From the NCBI GenBank assembly GCA_030834965.1, contig JAUQWW010000046.1, positions 1 to 64,000 of the forward strand: 64,000 nucleotides of DNA, written 5' to 3'. Below, one piece after another: positions 58,680 through 63,401 of the stretch. How positions within the stretch are numbered: the first letter of the stretch is position 1; the number at the start of each line of letters is the position of its first letter. Both the position numbers and the translations under genes were made by a program. Source of the DNA: Gallionellaceae bacterium. GTDB taxonomy: Bacteria; Pseudomonadota; Gammaproteobacteria; Burkholderiales; Gallionellaceae. Below the pieces are notes generated by a model that worked only from the letters and a program-made list of their open reading frames with translations, had not been told where the DNA came from and ran no database searches.

Positions 58680-59759
58680 TTATCCCCGACTACTGGAATG
58701 GCCATCCAAATAATTCATGCAAAAATCGCGGATGATTTCTTCCTCATTGGCAGGAATGATCAGGATGGGTTTTGAACCTGCACGCGCAATTTTCGCCTGG
58801 CCGGACTGGTTGGCTGCACTATCCAGTTCGAAGCCGAGAAATGCCAGCGAGCCGCAGATTCCTGCACGAATTTCCGGGGAATGTTCGCCGATCCCGCCCG
58901 AGAAAACGAGTGCGTCCATGCCACCCGCCTTGGCTGCGAAGCCACCGATTGCGGCGCGCACCTGGCGGCAGAAATAATCGATGGCGAATTTTGCAGGTGC
59001 GCTGTTGCTGGAAACAAGGTCCTTCATTTCGGAGCTTTCACCATCGGACAGCGCGATCAACCCCATCTTGTGAAACACCATGTCGCTCAATTGTGCAGGC
59101 GCAAAGCGCTGCGCCAGTTCCAGCATCACGCCGGGATCGAGGTCGCCGCTTCGGGTGCCCATCGGAATGCCGCCCGCAGGGGTATAGCCCATCGTGGTGT
59201 CCACGGATTTCAGGTTCTCCAGCAGGCACAGGCTTGCGCCGCTACCCAGATGGGCGACGACAATTTTTCCATGGGCGGCGCCACCCAAAATTCCGGGCAG
59301 GACTTTGGCGATGTATGCGTAGTTGAGGCCGTGAAAGCCGAAGCGGCGCAGGCCGAGCTCATTCGGGATGGGGAGGCGTCTGGACAGTTCGGGCAGAGTG
59401 GTGTGGAACGCCGTATCGAAACACGCGATTTGCGGCGCCTTGAAACGTTGCGCGCACAGATCAATGCCGAGCAGGTTGCCCGGCAAATGCAGTGGCGCAA
59501 GAGGAATCAGGTCATTCAGCCGCGTCCGCTCGGCAGCATCAATCAGCCGTGCTGCATCGGCGATGTCTCCGCCATGAACGAAGCGGTGGCCGATGACAGC
59601 AGGAATATCGCTTCCCAAATCCTTCAGCAACCGGTCGAATGCCTGCTGCGGTTTGCGCGCATGCTCATAATGGAAGCTGCGCCGCGAGCCGTCGGTGTGA
59701 AACAGGCTCGCTTTCAAGGATGACGAGCCGCAGTTGATGGTGAGGATATTTGATGTCAT
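58680..59759 (-). CDS. ackA: acetate kinase
   Basis: A 359-residue acetate kinase (family members are usually near 400). LTINCGSSSLKASLF opens the protein; RFVHGG, CFDTAFHTTLP, VVAHLGSGASLC, DTTMGYTPAGGIPMGTRSGD and FSGGIGEHSPEIR are signature segments. It converts acetyl phosphate and ADP to acetate and ATP. It is the third gene of the phosphoketolase-transaldolase-ackA series. The ATG lies within the left copy of a 7-bp target duplication (59753-59759) of a MITE-like element, so its present upstream region is transposon sequence with only a weak TAGG ribosome site. Confidence 0.93.
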   Translation of the reverse strand: MTSNILTINCGSSSLKASLFHTDGSRRSFHYEHARKPQQAFDRLLKDLGSDIPAVIGHRFVHGGDIADAARLIDAAERTRLNDLIPLAPLHLPGNLLGIDLCAQRFKAPQIACFDTAFHTTLPELSRRLPIPNELGLRRFGFHGLNYAYIAKVLPGILGGAAHGKIVVAHLGSGASLCLLENLKSVDTTMGYTPAGGIPMGTRSGDLDPGVMLELAQRFAPAQLSDMVFHKMGLIALSDGESSEMKDLVSSNSAPAKFAIDYFCRQVRAAIGGFAAKAGGMDALVFSGGIGEHSPEIRAGICGSLAFLGFELDSAANQSGQAKIARAGSKPILIIPANEEEIIRDFCMNYLDGHSSSRG

Positions 59760-59930
59760 ACCAAATAGCCTATTAGGCCGTCATTCCCGCGCAGGCGGGA
59801 ATCCAGCAAGGACAAACATCCCGTGAAGCGGACAAAACCGCGATATTGTCCCGCTTCGCGGGAGATTTATTAATCATCTGGATTCCCGCCTGCGCGGGAA
59901 TGACGTAGCTGCGTGCTAATAGACTATTTA
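59760..59930. mobile_element. 171-bp MITE-like element with 7-bp target-site duplication
   Basis: The arms 59763-59806 and 59878-59929 are imperfect inverted repeats sharing AAATAG-CTATTAG and the common proteobacterial repeat GTCATTCCCGCGCAGGCGGG. A nested pair (CCCGTGAAGCGG with CCGCTTCGCGGG) fills the centre. ATGTCAT occurs directly on both sides (59753-59759 and 59931-59937). No reading frame inside; it would need a transposase in trans. Confidence 0.8.
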
Positions 59931-59933
59931 ATG

Positions 59934-61016
59934 TCATGTCCTCACCAGTGCCAGCAGCTTATCGAAAGATTCCGCGAACAGCTTGATTCCATCGTACTGC
60001 AGTTGCTCGCCTGCCTCGTTCAGATCAATGCCCAGTGCAGCCAGGGCGGCAGAATGCTGCAGTGCCTCTTCTACCCCGGCGTCCAGCGTGCGGGCAACCT
60101 TGCCGTGATCGCGGAACGCCGCCAGTGTCGCGTCAGGCATCGTGTTAACCGTTTCCGGACCGATCAGCGGTTCGATGTAGAGCACGTCGCTGTAGGCGGG
60201 ATTCTTGGTGCCGGTGCTGGCCCACAGCGGAAACTGGAGACGCACGCCAGCGCGGGCCAGTTCAGCGAAAGTCGGCCCGTGGAACAGTTCCCGATAACGC
60301 CGGTAGGCCAGCTTGGCCATCGCTACCGCGCTCTTGCCGCGCAGCGCGAGCGCTTCAGGCGAGCCGCAGGCGTCCAGTTTCTTGTCCACCAGCGTATCCA
60401 CCCGGCTCAGGAAAATGCTCGCGACAGATTTCAGCCGCCGCGGGTCGCCGCCGCTTTCCACCCATTTGCGTGCGCCACGTGTGTAGGCATGCGCCACCGC
60501 ATCTTCGTGAGCCACGGAGAACATCAGCGTGACATTGACATTCAGTCCCTCCGCAGTGAGGCGCTCGAAGGCGCGGATACCCGCCGGGGTGGCGGGCAAT
60601 TTGACCAGAAGGTTGTCGCGTCCCACTAATGTCTTGAGGCGGCGGGCTGTGGCCACGCTGCCTTCTTCGTCTGCGGAAAGATGGGGGGAGACTTCCAGGC
60701 TGACATAACCGGCGTCGCCCGCCGTGGCCTTGTAAATCGGCAGAAACAGGTCGCAGGCATCGCGGATGTCGGGTATCACGAGGGCCTCATAACGTGCCTC
60801 GGCAGGCAGGCTACCGGCTTTCAGGCGCGCCAGTTCGTCTTTGTAATAGGGGCTGTCGGACACCGCCTTGTGGAAGATGGAGGGGTTGGACGTGACACCA
60901 TCTACGCCGTCCTCGGCGATGAGGCGCTGGAGCCCGCCCTCACGCAGCAAGGTGCGGGACAGGTTGTCCAGCCAGATGTGCTGGCCATGCTGCCTGATGG
61001 CGAGGAGAGGGTTCAT
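59934..61016 (-). CDS. tal: transaldolase
   Basis: A 360-residue transaldolase of the TalB-like/actinobacterial long form, the type often fused to or paired with glucose-6-phosphate isomerase. GVDGVTSNPSIFHKAV lies near the start, NLLVKLPATPAGIRAFE supplies a core strand and the Schiff-base Lys is probably in WASTGTKNPAYSDVLYIEPL. It shuttles dihydroxyacetone units between sugar phosphates, here feeding or rebalancing fructose-6-P and xylulose-5-P for the phosphoketolase 12 bases upstream. Stop codon TGA lies inside the right target-duplication copy of the MITE-like element. Confidence 0.94.
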   Translation of the reverse strand: MNPLLAIRQHGQHIWLDNLSRTLLREGGLQRLIAEDGVDGVTSNPSIFHKAVSDSPYYKDELARLKAGSLPAEARYEALVIPDIRDACDLFLPIYKATAGDAGYVSLEVSPHLSADEEGSVATARRLKTLVGRDNLLVKLPATPAGIRAFERLTAEGLNVNVTLMFSVAHEDAVAHAYTRGARKWVESGGDPRRLKSVASIFLSRVDTLVDKKLDACGSPEALALRGKSAVAMAKLAYRRYRELFHGPTFAELARAGVRLQFPLWASTGTKNPAYSDVLYIEPLIGPETVNTMPDATLAAFRDHGKVARTLDAGVEEALQHSAALAALGIDLNEAGEQLQYDGIKLFAESFDKLLALVRT

Positions 61017-61028
61017 GGTTTTTTTCCT

Positions 61029-63401
61029 TCAATAAGGCCATGTCCAGCCATCCGCCTCGGGCAGATCGACGCCGTGCTCATGGGCATAGGTGCGGCATTC
61101 GATCTGTTTATCGCGCAGCCGCTGCTTGACGTGGGCGCCGGCCACGCTCAGCGCAGGGATGCGGTCGATCACGTCGATGGCCAGGCTGAAGCGGTCGATC
61201 TCGTTCTCGATCGCCAGTTCCAGCGGCGTGTTGATGCTGCCCTTTTCCTTGTAGCCGCGCACGTGCAGGTTTTTGTGGTTGGCGCGGCGGTAGGCGAGGC
61301 GGTGGATCAGCCAGGGATAGCCGTGGAAGTTGAAGATGATCGGCTTGTCGAGCGTGAACAGGCTGTCGAAATCCTTGTCGGACAATCCGTGCGGATGCTC
61401 GCTGCTTGGCGTGAGCGTATACAGATCGATGACGTTGACGAAGCGTATCTTCAGCTGCGGAAAGTTTTCGCGCAGCAGCACCACTGCCGCCAGCGCTTCC
61501 CTGGTGGGTACGTCGCCTGCGCTGGCCATCACCAGATCCGGCTCGGCGCCGTCGTCATTGCTCGCCCATTCCCAGATGCCGATGCCCTTGGTGCAGTGTG
61601 AGATCGCCGCTTCCTTGTCGAGATACTGCAAATGCTTCTGCTTGTCGCAGACGATGACATTGATGTGGTCCGTGCTTTCCAGGCATTGCGCGGAAACGGC
61701 CAACAGCGTGTTGACGTCGGGCGGCAGGTAGATGTGCGTGACGTCGGGGCTCTTGTTCAGCACCACGTCGAGGAAGCCCGGGTCCTGATGGGTGAAGCCG
61801 TTGTGATCCTGGCGCCAAACGGTGGAGGTGATCAGCAGGTTGAGCGAGGACACGGGTTCGCGCCAAGGGAGTTTCCGCGACATGGTGAGCCACTTGGCGT
61901 GCTGGTTGAACATCGAGTCGATGACATGGACGAAGGCTTCGTAAGTGGAGAAGAAGCCGTGGCGGCCGGTGAGCAGATAGCCTTCCAGCCAGCCTTCCAG
62001 CGTATGCTCGGAGAGCATCTCCATCACCCGTCCGTCCGGCGACAGCTCGCCGCCGTCGGCGTCCTCCGGCAGAAAATCGGCGAGCCAGGTTTTCTTGCTG
62101 GCCGCGTAGATGTCGTCGAGCTTGTTCGAAGAATTTTCGTCCGGGCCGAACACGCGGAAATTGTGCATGTTGGCGCGCATGATGTCGCGCAAAAATTTGC
62201 CCAGCGGGCGCGTATTCTCGGCCGTGATCTTGCCCGGCCCCGGCAGTTCGATGGTGTAGTCGCGGTAATCCGGCATTCTCAGCACCTTGCGCAGCAGCCC
62301 GCCGTTCGCGTGCGGATTCGCGCTCATGCGGCGCGGCCCCCTGGGTGCGAGGGCCTTCAGTTCGGGCAGCAGCTTGCCGGATGCATCGAACAACTCCTCC
62401 GGCCGGTAGCTGCGCAGCCATGCTTCCAGTTGCGCGAGATGGGCGGGGTTGTCGTGCAGCTTGCCGAGCGGCACCTGGTGTGCGCGCCAGTAGCCTTCCA
62501 CCTTGTGGCCGTCCACTTCCTTGGGACCGGTCCAGCCCTTGGGGCTGCGCAGTACGATCATCGGCCAGCGCGGTCGCAGCGGGTTGCCGCTGCTGCGGGC
62601 CTGCTGCTGGATGCGGCGGATTTCCAGCACGCACTGCTCCATCGTCGCGGCCATTTCCTGATGCATGGTCATGGGGTCGGAGCCTTCAACAAAATAAGGC
62701 GTCCAGCCGTAGCCCTTGAACAGGTTTTCCAGCTCATCGTGCGAGATGCGCGACAGCAGGGTTGGGTTGTTGATCTTGTAACCGTTGAGATGCAGGATGG
62801 GCAGCACCGCGCCGTCGCGGATCGGGTTGAGAAATTTGTTGGAGTGCCAGGAAGTGGCCAGCGGCCCCGTCTCGGCCTCGCCGTCGCCTACCATCACCGC
62901 CACCAGCAGATCGGGATTGTCGAAGGCCGCGCCGAAGGCGTGCGAAATGCTGTAGCCGAGCTCGCCGCCCTCGTGGATCGAACCCGGTGTCTCCGGCGTG
63001 CAGTGGCTGCCGATGCCGCCGGGAAAGGAAAACTCCCGGAACAGCTGGCGCATGCCTTCCTCGTCTTCGCTCTTGTTCGAATAGATTTCGCTGTAGGTGC
63101 CTTCCAGATACACCGGCGCCAGCACGCCGGGCGCGCCATGGCCGGGGCCGGCCAGGAAAATGGCATTGAGGTCAAACTTGTTGATCAGGCGGTTGAGGTG
63201 GATGTAGGTGAAGCTCAATCCGGGGCTCGACCCCCAGTGGCCGAGCAGGCGCTGTTTGATGTGCCCGGGGCTGAGCGGCTCGCGCAGCAGCGGATTGTCG
63301 CGCAGATAGATCATGCCGGCCGCGAGATAATTGCAGGCACGCCAGTAGGCGTTCATCCTGTCGATTTCTAGCTGGGGCAGCGTCATATGGCTTGGGCTCA
63401 T
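61029..63401 (-). CDS. xfp: xylulose-5-phosphate/fructose-6-phosphate phosphoketolase
   Basis: A 790-residue thiamine-diphosphate enzyme. TPP-binding stretch [20 protein letters not shown]...HLNGYKI; further family blocks [53 protein letters not shown]-like [16 protein letters not shown], and [17 protein letters not shown]. It cleaves xylulose-5-P (and perhaps fructose-6-P) with phosphate to acetyl phosphate plus a triose or tetrose phosphate. With Tal and AckA downstream it forms a carbon-conserving route from sugar phosphates to acetate and ATP. Confidence 0.96.

Follow-up and report, generated by a model that had tools for sequence, protein, structure and literature searches.

A putative IS1380-type MITE between tal and ackA, and the recurrence of related elements at ATGA stop-start overlaps

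How can a mobile element lie between two genes of an operon and leave both reading frames intact? The question arises at the tal-ackA junction of a Gallionellaceae bacterium, within a stretch of 64,000 nt (contig JAUQWW010000046.1) that is called the window here. On its minus strand, the genes for phosphoketolase (xfp, 61029-63401; Pfam XFP_N, XFP and XFP_C), transaldolase (tal, 59934-61016; PF00923, E = 1e-79) and acetate kinase (ackA, 58680-59759; PF00871, E = 8.4e-77) follow each other, with xfp as the upstream gene. A first-pass annotation had described the heptamer ATGTCAT on both sides of 171 bp between tal and ackA, and the coordinates bear this out: one copy occupies 59753-59759, the other 59931-59937, and the distance between them is 171 bp. 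The ackA start codon ATG (59759-59757, minus strand) lies inside the left copy, and the tal stop codon TGA (59936-59934, minus strand) inside the right one. Despite the element, the frames of tal and ackA are both intact, and the N-terminus of the predicted acetate kinase, MTSNILTIN, resembles the starts of homologues, e.g., MTKTVLTIN in locus L031. The same genome has a second, divergent transaldolase gene at another place (G000:C71:18192-19226), whose product shows 43% identity.

The edges of the element were defined with the aid of 126 copies, namely 17 from the own genome, 29 loci from a search of the family and 80 regions fetched among the matches listed, which were taken from the top of the list downward, with some near contig starts skipped. 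A copy was regarded as two-ended when both 17-bp terminal repeats reached a score of at least 12/17. This was the case for 53 of the 126 copies; the consensus of their terminal repeats is CCCRRATWRTCCATTAG, and 50 of the 53 have a length of 170-175 bp. Exact direct repeats of 5 bp abut the consensus edges in 30 two-ended copies, whereas 500 random re-pairings of the flanks gave 3.5 on average and never more than 9, and exact repeats of 6 bp or 7 bp at these edges occur in none of the 53. Because the 17-bp repeats of the other copies could be aligned, the right end of the window copy was placed at 59932, which yields an element of 173 bp (59760-59932) bounded by the left terminal inverted repeat ACCAAATAGCCTATTAG (59760-59776, plus strand) and the right terminal inverted repeat ATTAAATAGTCTATTAG (59916-59932, minus strand). 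The target-site duplication is thus GTCAT on the plus strand, or ATGAC on the minus strand; copy 1 (59755-59759) contains the ackA start ATG and copy 2 (59933-59937) the tal stop TGA. The 7-bp duplication ATGTCAT proposed at first was consequently rejected. A 7-bp match is obtained by shortening the element by 2 bp, and since this works in only 3 of the 53 copies, the window copy included, the additional AT is a chance match. The matching flanks and the intact stop and start in the right and left copy thus held as annotated, and the length of the duplication was corrected to 5 bp; 7-bp duplications are absent from 50 of the 53 copies, and 30 have duplications of 5 bp, from which an identical empty site follows for the window copy.

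All 30 exact duplications conform to the pattern NTNAN, in which the second base is T and the fourth is A and which fits 4.3% of the positions in the flanking background. Among the 23 two-ended copies without an exact duplication, the pattern is still found in 16 left and 17 right flanks. Of the eight two-ended copies in the own genome, three are flanked by an exact duplication. The element as query yielded 75 matches in this genome, although a good part of these were short hits to REPs or one and the same copy read in reverse, and it matched 145 of 158 family genomes, in many cases to the REP core alone. A plasmid search with the element retrieved four records, none of which was covered to more than 24%, and the matches comprised the REP core only. 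The annotation of the element as a MITE is upheld by its small size, the lack of coding capacity, the inverted repeats at both ends, the target duplication, the dispersed copies in the own genome and the family, and the predicted RNA fold. A 74-bp two-ended deletion derivative with the duplication TTCAA was found at L174 (G000:C97), at a site that a predicted open reading frame would span.

The terminal repeats connect the element with a transposon family. Matches to PF13701 (IS1380) were found in 37 of the 158 family genomes, in 28 of them above the curated cut-off. The own genome has no PF13701 match, and therefore a mobilizing transposase is either absent from it or unassembled. In 4 of the 30 IS1380 loci that were fetched (L308, L311, L312 and L316), repeats of the form CCCRRATWRTCCATTAG lie on both sides of the PF13701 gene. 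Three of these genes also pass the cut-off of the NCBIfam IS1380 equivalog NF033539; the fourth, in L316, is partial and does not. Since its terminal repeats are shared with IS1380 elements of related genomes, where they enclose the transposase gene, the window element was classified as an IS1380-type MITE. A hand count showed that 7 of the 8 flanks of the four bracketed genes fit NTNAN; an exact 5-bp duplication was found in none of the four. Terminal-repeat matches with a score of at least 14 numbered 19 in 102.5 kb of IS1380 loci versus 7 in 229.7 kb of control loci, and four of these seven fall in elements of the MITE kind in L032 and L046. The 5-bp duplication observed in 30 of the 53 MITE copies is also what is listed for IS1247 of the IS1380 family in PMC3281130. 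In contrast to IS1380 elements, the window MITE has no transposase gene, is 173 bp long and has a pair of REPs as its core. The family genomes G125, G138, G154, G158 and G041 each contain dozens of matches to the flank-plus-repeat pattern at up to two mismatches (115 in G125 and 127 in G158), which suggests bursts of elements with these ends.

The REP core offers a different candidate for mobilization. Its first unit (59779-59805, plus strand) consists of the tag CGTC, an 8-bp stem, a 4-nt loop and a CCA tail, and the second, inverted unit (59879-59905, minus strand) completes the dimer; the corresponding REP-like matches lie 142 and 43 nt upstream of ackA. If a REP-associated tyrosine transposase (RAYT/IS200 type) recognized these REPs, the outer repeats would be passive, and the own genome does contain one partial Y1_Tnp match, on another contig. 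However, transposition of the IS200/RAYT type is not known to generate target duplications, and the MITE family has duplications of 5 bp. The same duplications accompany elements with terminal inverted repeats but without a recognized REP core (L389, L421 and L432), and the tag of the window REPs is CGTC and not the GTAG of RAYT-mobilized REPs. Furthermore, REPs of the CGTC type are reported by Di Nocera et al. 2013 (PMC3733652) to have no dedicated transposase. Mobilization by a RAYT is thus highly improbable. In tag, stem, loop, tail and inverted arrangement, as read from the sequence and compared with the description in PMC3733652, the core corresponds to the CGTC-1 type, which includes dRS3 of Neisseria. 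In contrast to the CGTC REPs described there, the window dimer resides inside an element with terminal repeats and a target duplication of its own; the nearest case in that text is H. neapolitanus, in which all CGTC-1 dimers lie within a 41-bp palindrome. Because several elements with terminal inverted repeats have no recognized REP core, the REPs look like cargo rather than mobile ends, and travel inside IS1380-type elements is a possible route for CGTC REPs. In six own-genome loci (L005, L007, L009, L010, L016 and L019), however, CGTC-1 REPs form inverted pairs, about 125-132 bp long, that end at the CGTC tags without recognizable outer repeats, so that carriage by IS1380-type elements cannot be all there is to the REPs in this genome. 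The window MITE resembles Correia elements (CREE) and QMITE1, which are likewise short, have inverted repeats and strong secondary structure and lie beside genes, but its 5-bp duplication differs from the mostly TA duplication of CREE and from the 2-3 nt of QMITE1 that are given in PMC9330008 and PMC5896051, respectively.

Next, the site before the insertion was reconstructed. Joining the flanks and keeping one copy of the duplication results in ...GTGAGGACATGACATCAAATATC..., in which the tal stop TGA and the ackA start ATG share ATGA; the end of tal reads GTG AGG ACA TGA and is overlapped by ATG ACA TCA of ackA. The empty site is identical for a 5-bp and a 7-bp duplication, and the ATGA overlap predicted by the first-pass annotation is indeed rebuilt by removal of the element. 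Likewise, ATGA couplings elsewhere in the window, to which that annotation had likened the junction, were found at three positions between called genes (3440 on the plus strand, 10525 and 15325 on the minus strand). On the minus strand, the stop of tal and the start of ackA both fall within the duplication ATGAC, and therefore neither gene lost its end. The arrangement is very probably the result of the insertion of a non-autonomous IS1380-type element into a tal-ackA ATGA overlap. An IS1380 transposase acting in trans would have cut the target 5 bases apart in the register ATGAN, and gap repair would have copied these five bases, so that tal kept its TGA and ackA its ATG. As a consequence, a hairpin spacer of 173 nt would have taken the place of direct stop-start coupling, and the Shine-Dalgarno match in front of ackA would be weaker than before.

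The same gene order was sought in relatives. Among the genomes searched, the genus is represented by the own genome alone. An ackA search covered 100 genomes including the own, of which 57 had a match, and 30 loci were listed, 29 of them from other genomes. The tal searches covered 158 family genomes (30 loci listed), 399 genomes of the order (best 30 loci) and a contig scan (79 loci). ackA lies beside tal in 2 of the 109 tal loci listed from the family search and the contig scan, i.e., in the own genome and in L060, and in 1 of 28 tal loci among the best of the order search (L332, on the same contig as L060). The genome concerned, SKS4.bin89, has the only other xfp-tal-ackA operon among the loci listed, with a 41-nt spacer between tal and ackA and no element. 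It belongs to another family, its tal and ackA share 69% and 66% identity with those of the own genome, and hence its spacer says little about the ancestor of the lineage. This sole match, with its longer spacer and no element, counts against a universal tal-ackA overlap, and the comparison does not confirm that the overlap is ancestral, as had been annotated, although evidence from a different family is weak. No element-free tal-ackA orthologue with an ATGA junction was present among the loci listed.

The SKS4.bin89 spacer is compatible with a different history, in which tal and ackA were already separated by a longer spacer when the element entered, and the gene ends came to lie at its edges through subsequent deletions or by chance. 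Gaps also separate many xfp-ackA neighbors: in 25 of the 29 ackA loci from other genomes, the end of xfp is within 200 nt of ackA on the upstream side and tal is not in between, and 21 of the 25 measured gaps are positive, although gaps of 2-5 nt include ATGA overlaps. However, overlapping ends of xfp and ackA do exist in relatives, as ATGA overlaps in L045, L048, L049 and L053, as longer overlaps in L044 and L055, and as further negative gaps in L052 and L057. In addition, the window element has the same 5-mer on its two sides, each copy directly adjoins an inverted repeat, and the 5-mer follows NTNAN; deletions would have had to leave all of this on both sides. Entry into a longer spacer is therefore unlikely, and direct insertion into the overlap remains the preferred explanation. 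Elements with the terminal repeats of this family were found upstream of ackA in three of the 30 loci, the window copy included. In L032 (G035:C436, about 1320-1490), a REP MITE copy with an eroded right repeat lies between the xfp stop and ackA, and its left flank TTAAA contains the xfp stop. In L046 (G093:C32, 2554-2727), a repeat-bounded element without recognized REPs immediately precedes ackA, and TTAAA is found at either end of it. One REP-like match is present upstream of ackA in L038.

Quantification of further cases showed that the window copy is not a single instance. The duplication reads ATGAN/NTCAT in 8 of the 30 copies with an exact duplication, which had not been selected by target, and four of these eight separate two open frames, i.e., the window copy (L001), L281, L252 (identical to L423) and L295 (identical to L428). 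As ATGAN is a register in which ATGA conforms to NTNAN, the family was searched for this pentamer followed by the terminal repeat. Without mismatches, 47 sites in 31 of the 158 genomes were found. For 29 of them a partner repeat with a matching flank exists, over 5 bp in 27 cases and over 4 bp in two, and the other 18, with no partner repeat next to the same 4-mer, were left out. The window copy and L281 do not fit the mismatch-free pattern and are thus outside the 29; L386 and L437 have a right flank in common and may represent a single site. At 9 of the 29 sites, the frames to the left and to the right each stay open for 75 codons or more. When a usable start in the left frame was also required, seven sites split two ORFs of at least 75 aa (L389, L415, L417, L421, L423, L428 and L432). 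L390 was dropped from the split pairs for want of a usable start in the left frame, L360 was dropped because of its 64 aa, and L397 and L400 were set aside on the same grounds of start or length. L390 (G026:C24) and L400 (G101:C9) belong to two genera but look like one junction; the duplication is ATGAA in both, the elements differ in length (198 and 147 bp), and a shared or transferred insertion is suggested.

Pfam matches above the curated cut-off were found on both sides at four of the 29 sites, where a hydrolase/methyltransferase pair (L389), a glucokinase/6-phosphogluconolactonase-type pair (L421), a GT10/GT2 pair (L423) and a PPIase/Sel1 pair (L432) are split at ATGA. L415 and L428 have Pfam support on one side and L417 on neither. 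With the window copy and L281, a GDPD/FAD-oxidoreductase pair, the well-supported split pairs number six, and as the split gene pairs differ, they represent separate insertions. The seven of 29 sites exceed the 48 of 2494 ATGA sites in the flanking DNA that passed the same test (Fisher p = 1.7e-6), and they also exceed an estimate of permissible, non-intragenic sites (p = 0.004), a rough control scaled by the inside-gene fraction of the window (398/551). For the four Pfam-supported sites, p was 0.013 against 3 of 153 sites in the window and 0.15 against the scaled control. Genes were called with a home-made program; its 47 genes cover 78% of the window, and it overlooked others, e.g., one side of L252 and of L295. 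In summary, recurrent splitting of ATGA overlaps in related bacteria is well supported by the sequence comparisons, and enrichment beyond target preference and selection against gene disruption is moderately supported and depends on the control. No description of MITEs that split ATGA overlaps was found in the titles or abstract openings of the open-access papers listed, nor was a recurring fit to such overlaps seen there for bacterial MITEs such as Correia/CREE or QMITE1.

The consequences for ackA were approached by computation. The calculated duplex energy with the anti-SD before ackA changes from -5.8 kcal/mol at the empty site to -2.4 kcal/mol at present, and 12 of the 47 called genes, among them ackA, have a value this weak or weaker. 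The GAGG that the first-pass annotation took for the old ribosome site of ackA is a putative one, as it ends only 2 nt before the ATG. The element RNA folded alone has a predicted energy of -108.3 kcal/mol (z = -13.3). The tal stop and the ackA start are 175 nt apart in sequence and four steps apart in the predicted fold; in ten folded split pairs, L392 included, this distance is at most 6 steps in six cases and 33-41 steps in four. No sigma-70-like site was found in 59600-61200. Four terminator-like sites compare with a mean of 1.3 (sd 1.2) in shuffles, a weak excess, and two weak sites lie inside the element, one of them on the transcribed minus strand at 59779-59767. Three Rfam matches were all below the gathering score (the best, a sucA motif, had 28.1 bits versus 40) and were ignored. 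The coupling of tal and ackA may have been weakened and is perhaps partly kept by the hairpin.

In the register ATGAN, an ATGA overlap always conforms to NTNAN and is duplicated in full, so that insertions at such sites would be tolerated. We hypothesized that IS1380-type MITEs act as "operon-junction-safe" mobile spacers, for which every ATGA overlap would be a legal target in the only register that duplicates both signals. The palindromic RNA would bring the stop beside the start, and a ribosome that terminates at the tal stop would melt the base of the stem and make the ackA start accessible, so that coupling would be retuned and not lost. This proposal, based on predicted folds, is speculative and rather doubtful. 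The chances are about even that the ATGA splits simply reflect an AT-rich target rule together with the loss of gene-disrupting insertions and have no functional effect on the operons. NTNAN in 30 of 30 exact duplications, the expected purging of intragenic insertions and the moderate enrichment over permissible sites agree with this simpler account, and nothing decisive speaks against it. It concerns the consequence alone and is compatible with the insertion of an IS1380-type element into the tal-ackA overlap.

Taken together, the results point to a simple rule, written in the target sequence, that allows a transposon to insert between tightly overlapping operon genes with neither gene broken, as was seen in several gene pairs. 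The element may also be a carrier for REPs of the CGTC type, which are described as having no dedicated transposase. The split pairs represent natural designs with and without the overlap, which bear on how much an ATGA overlap matters for coupled translation.
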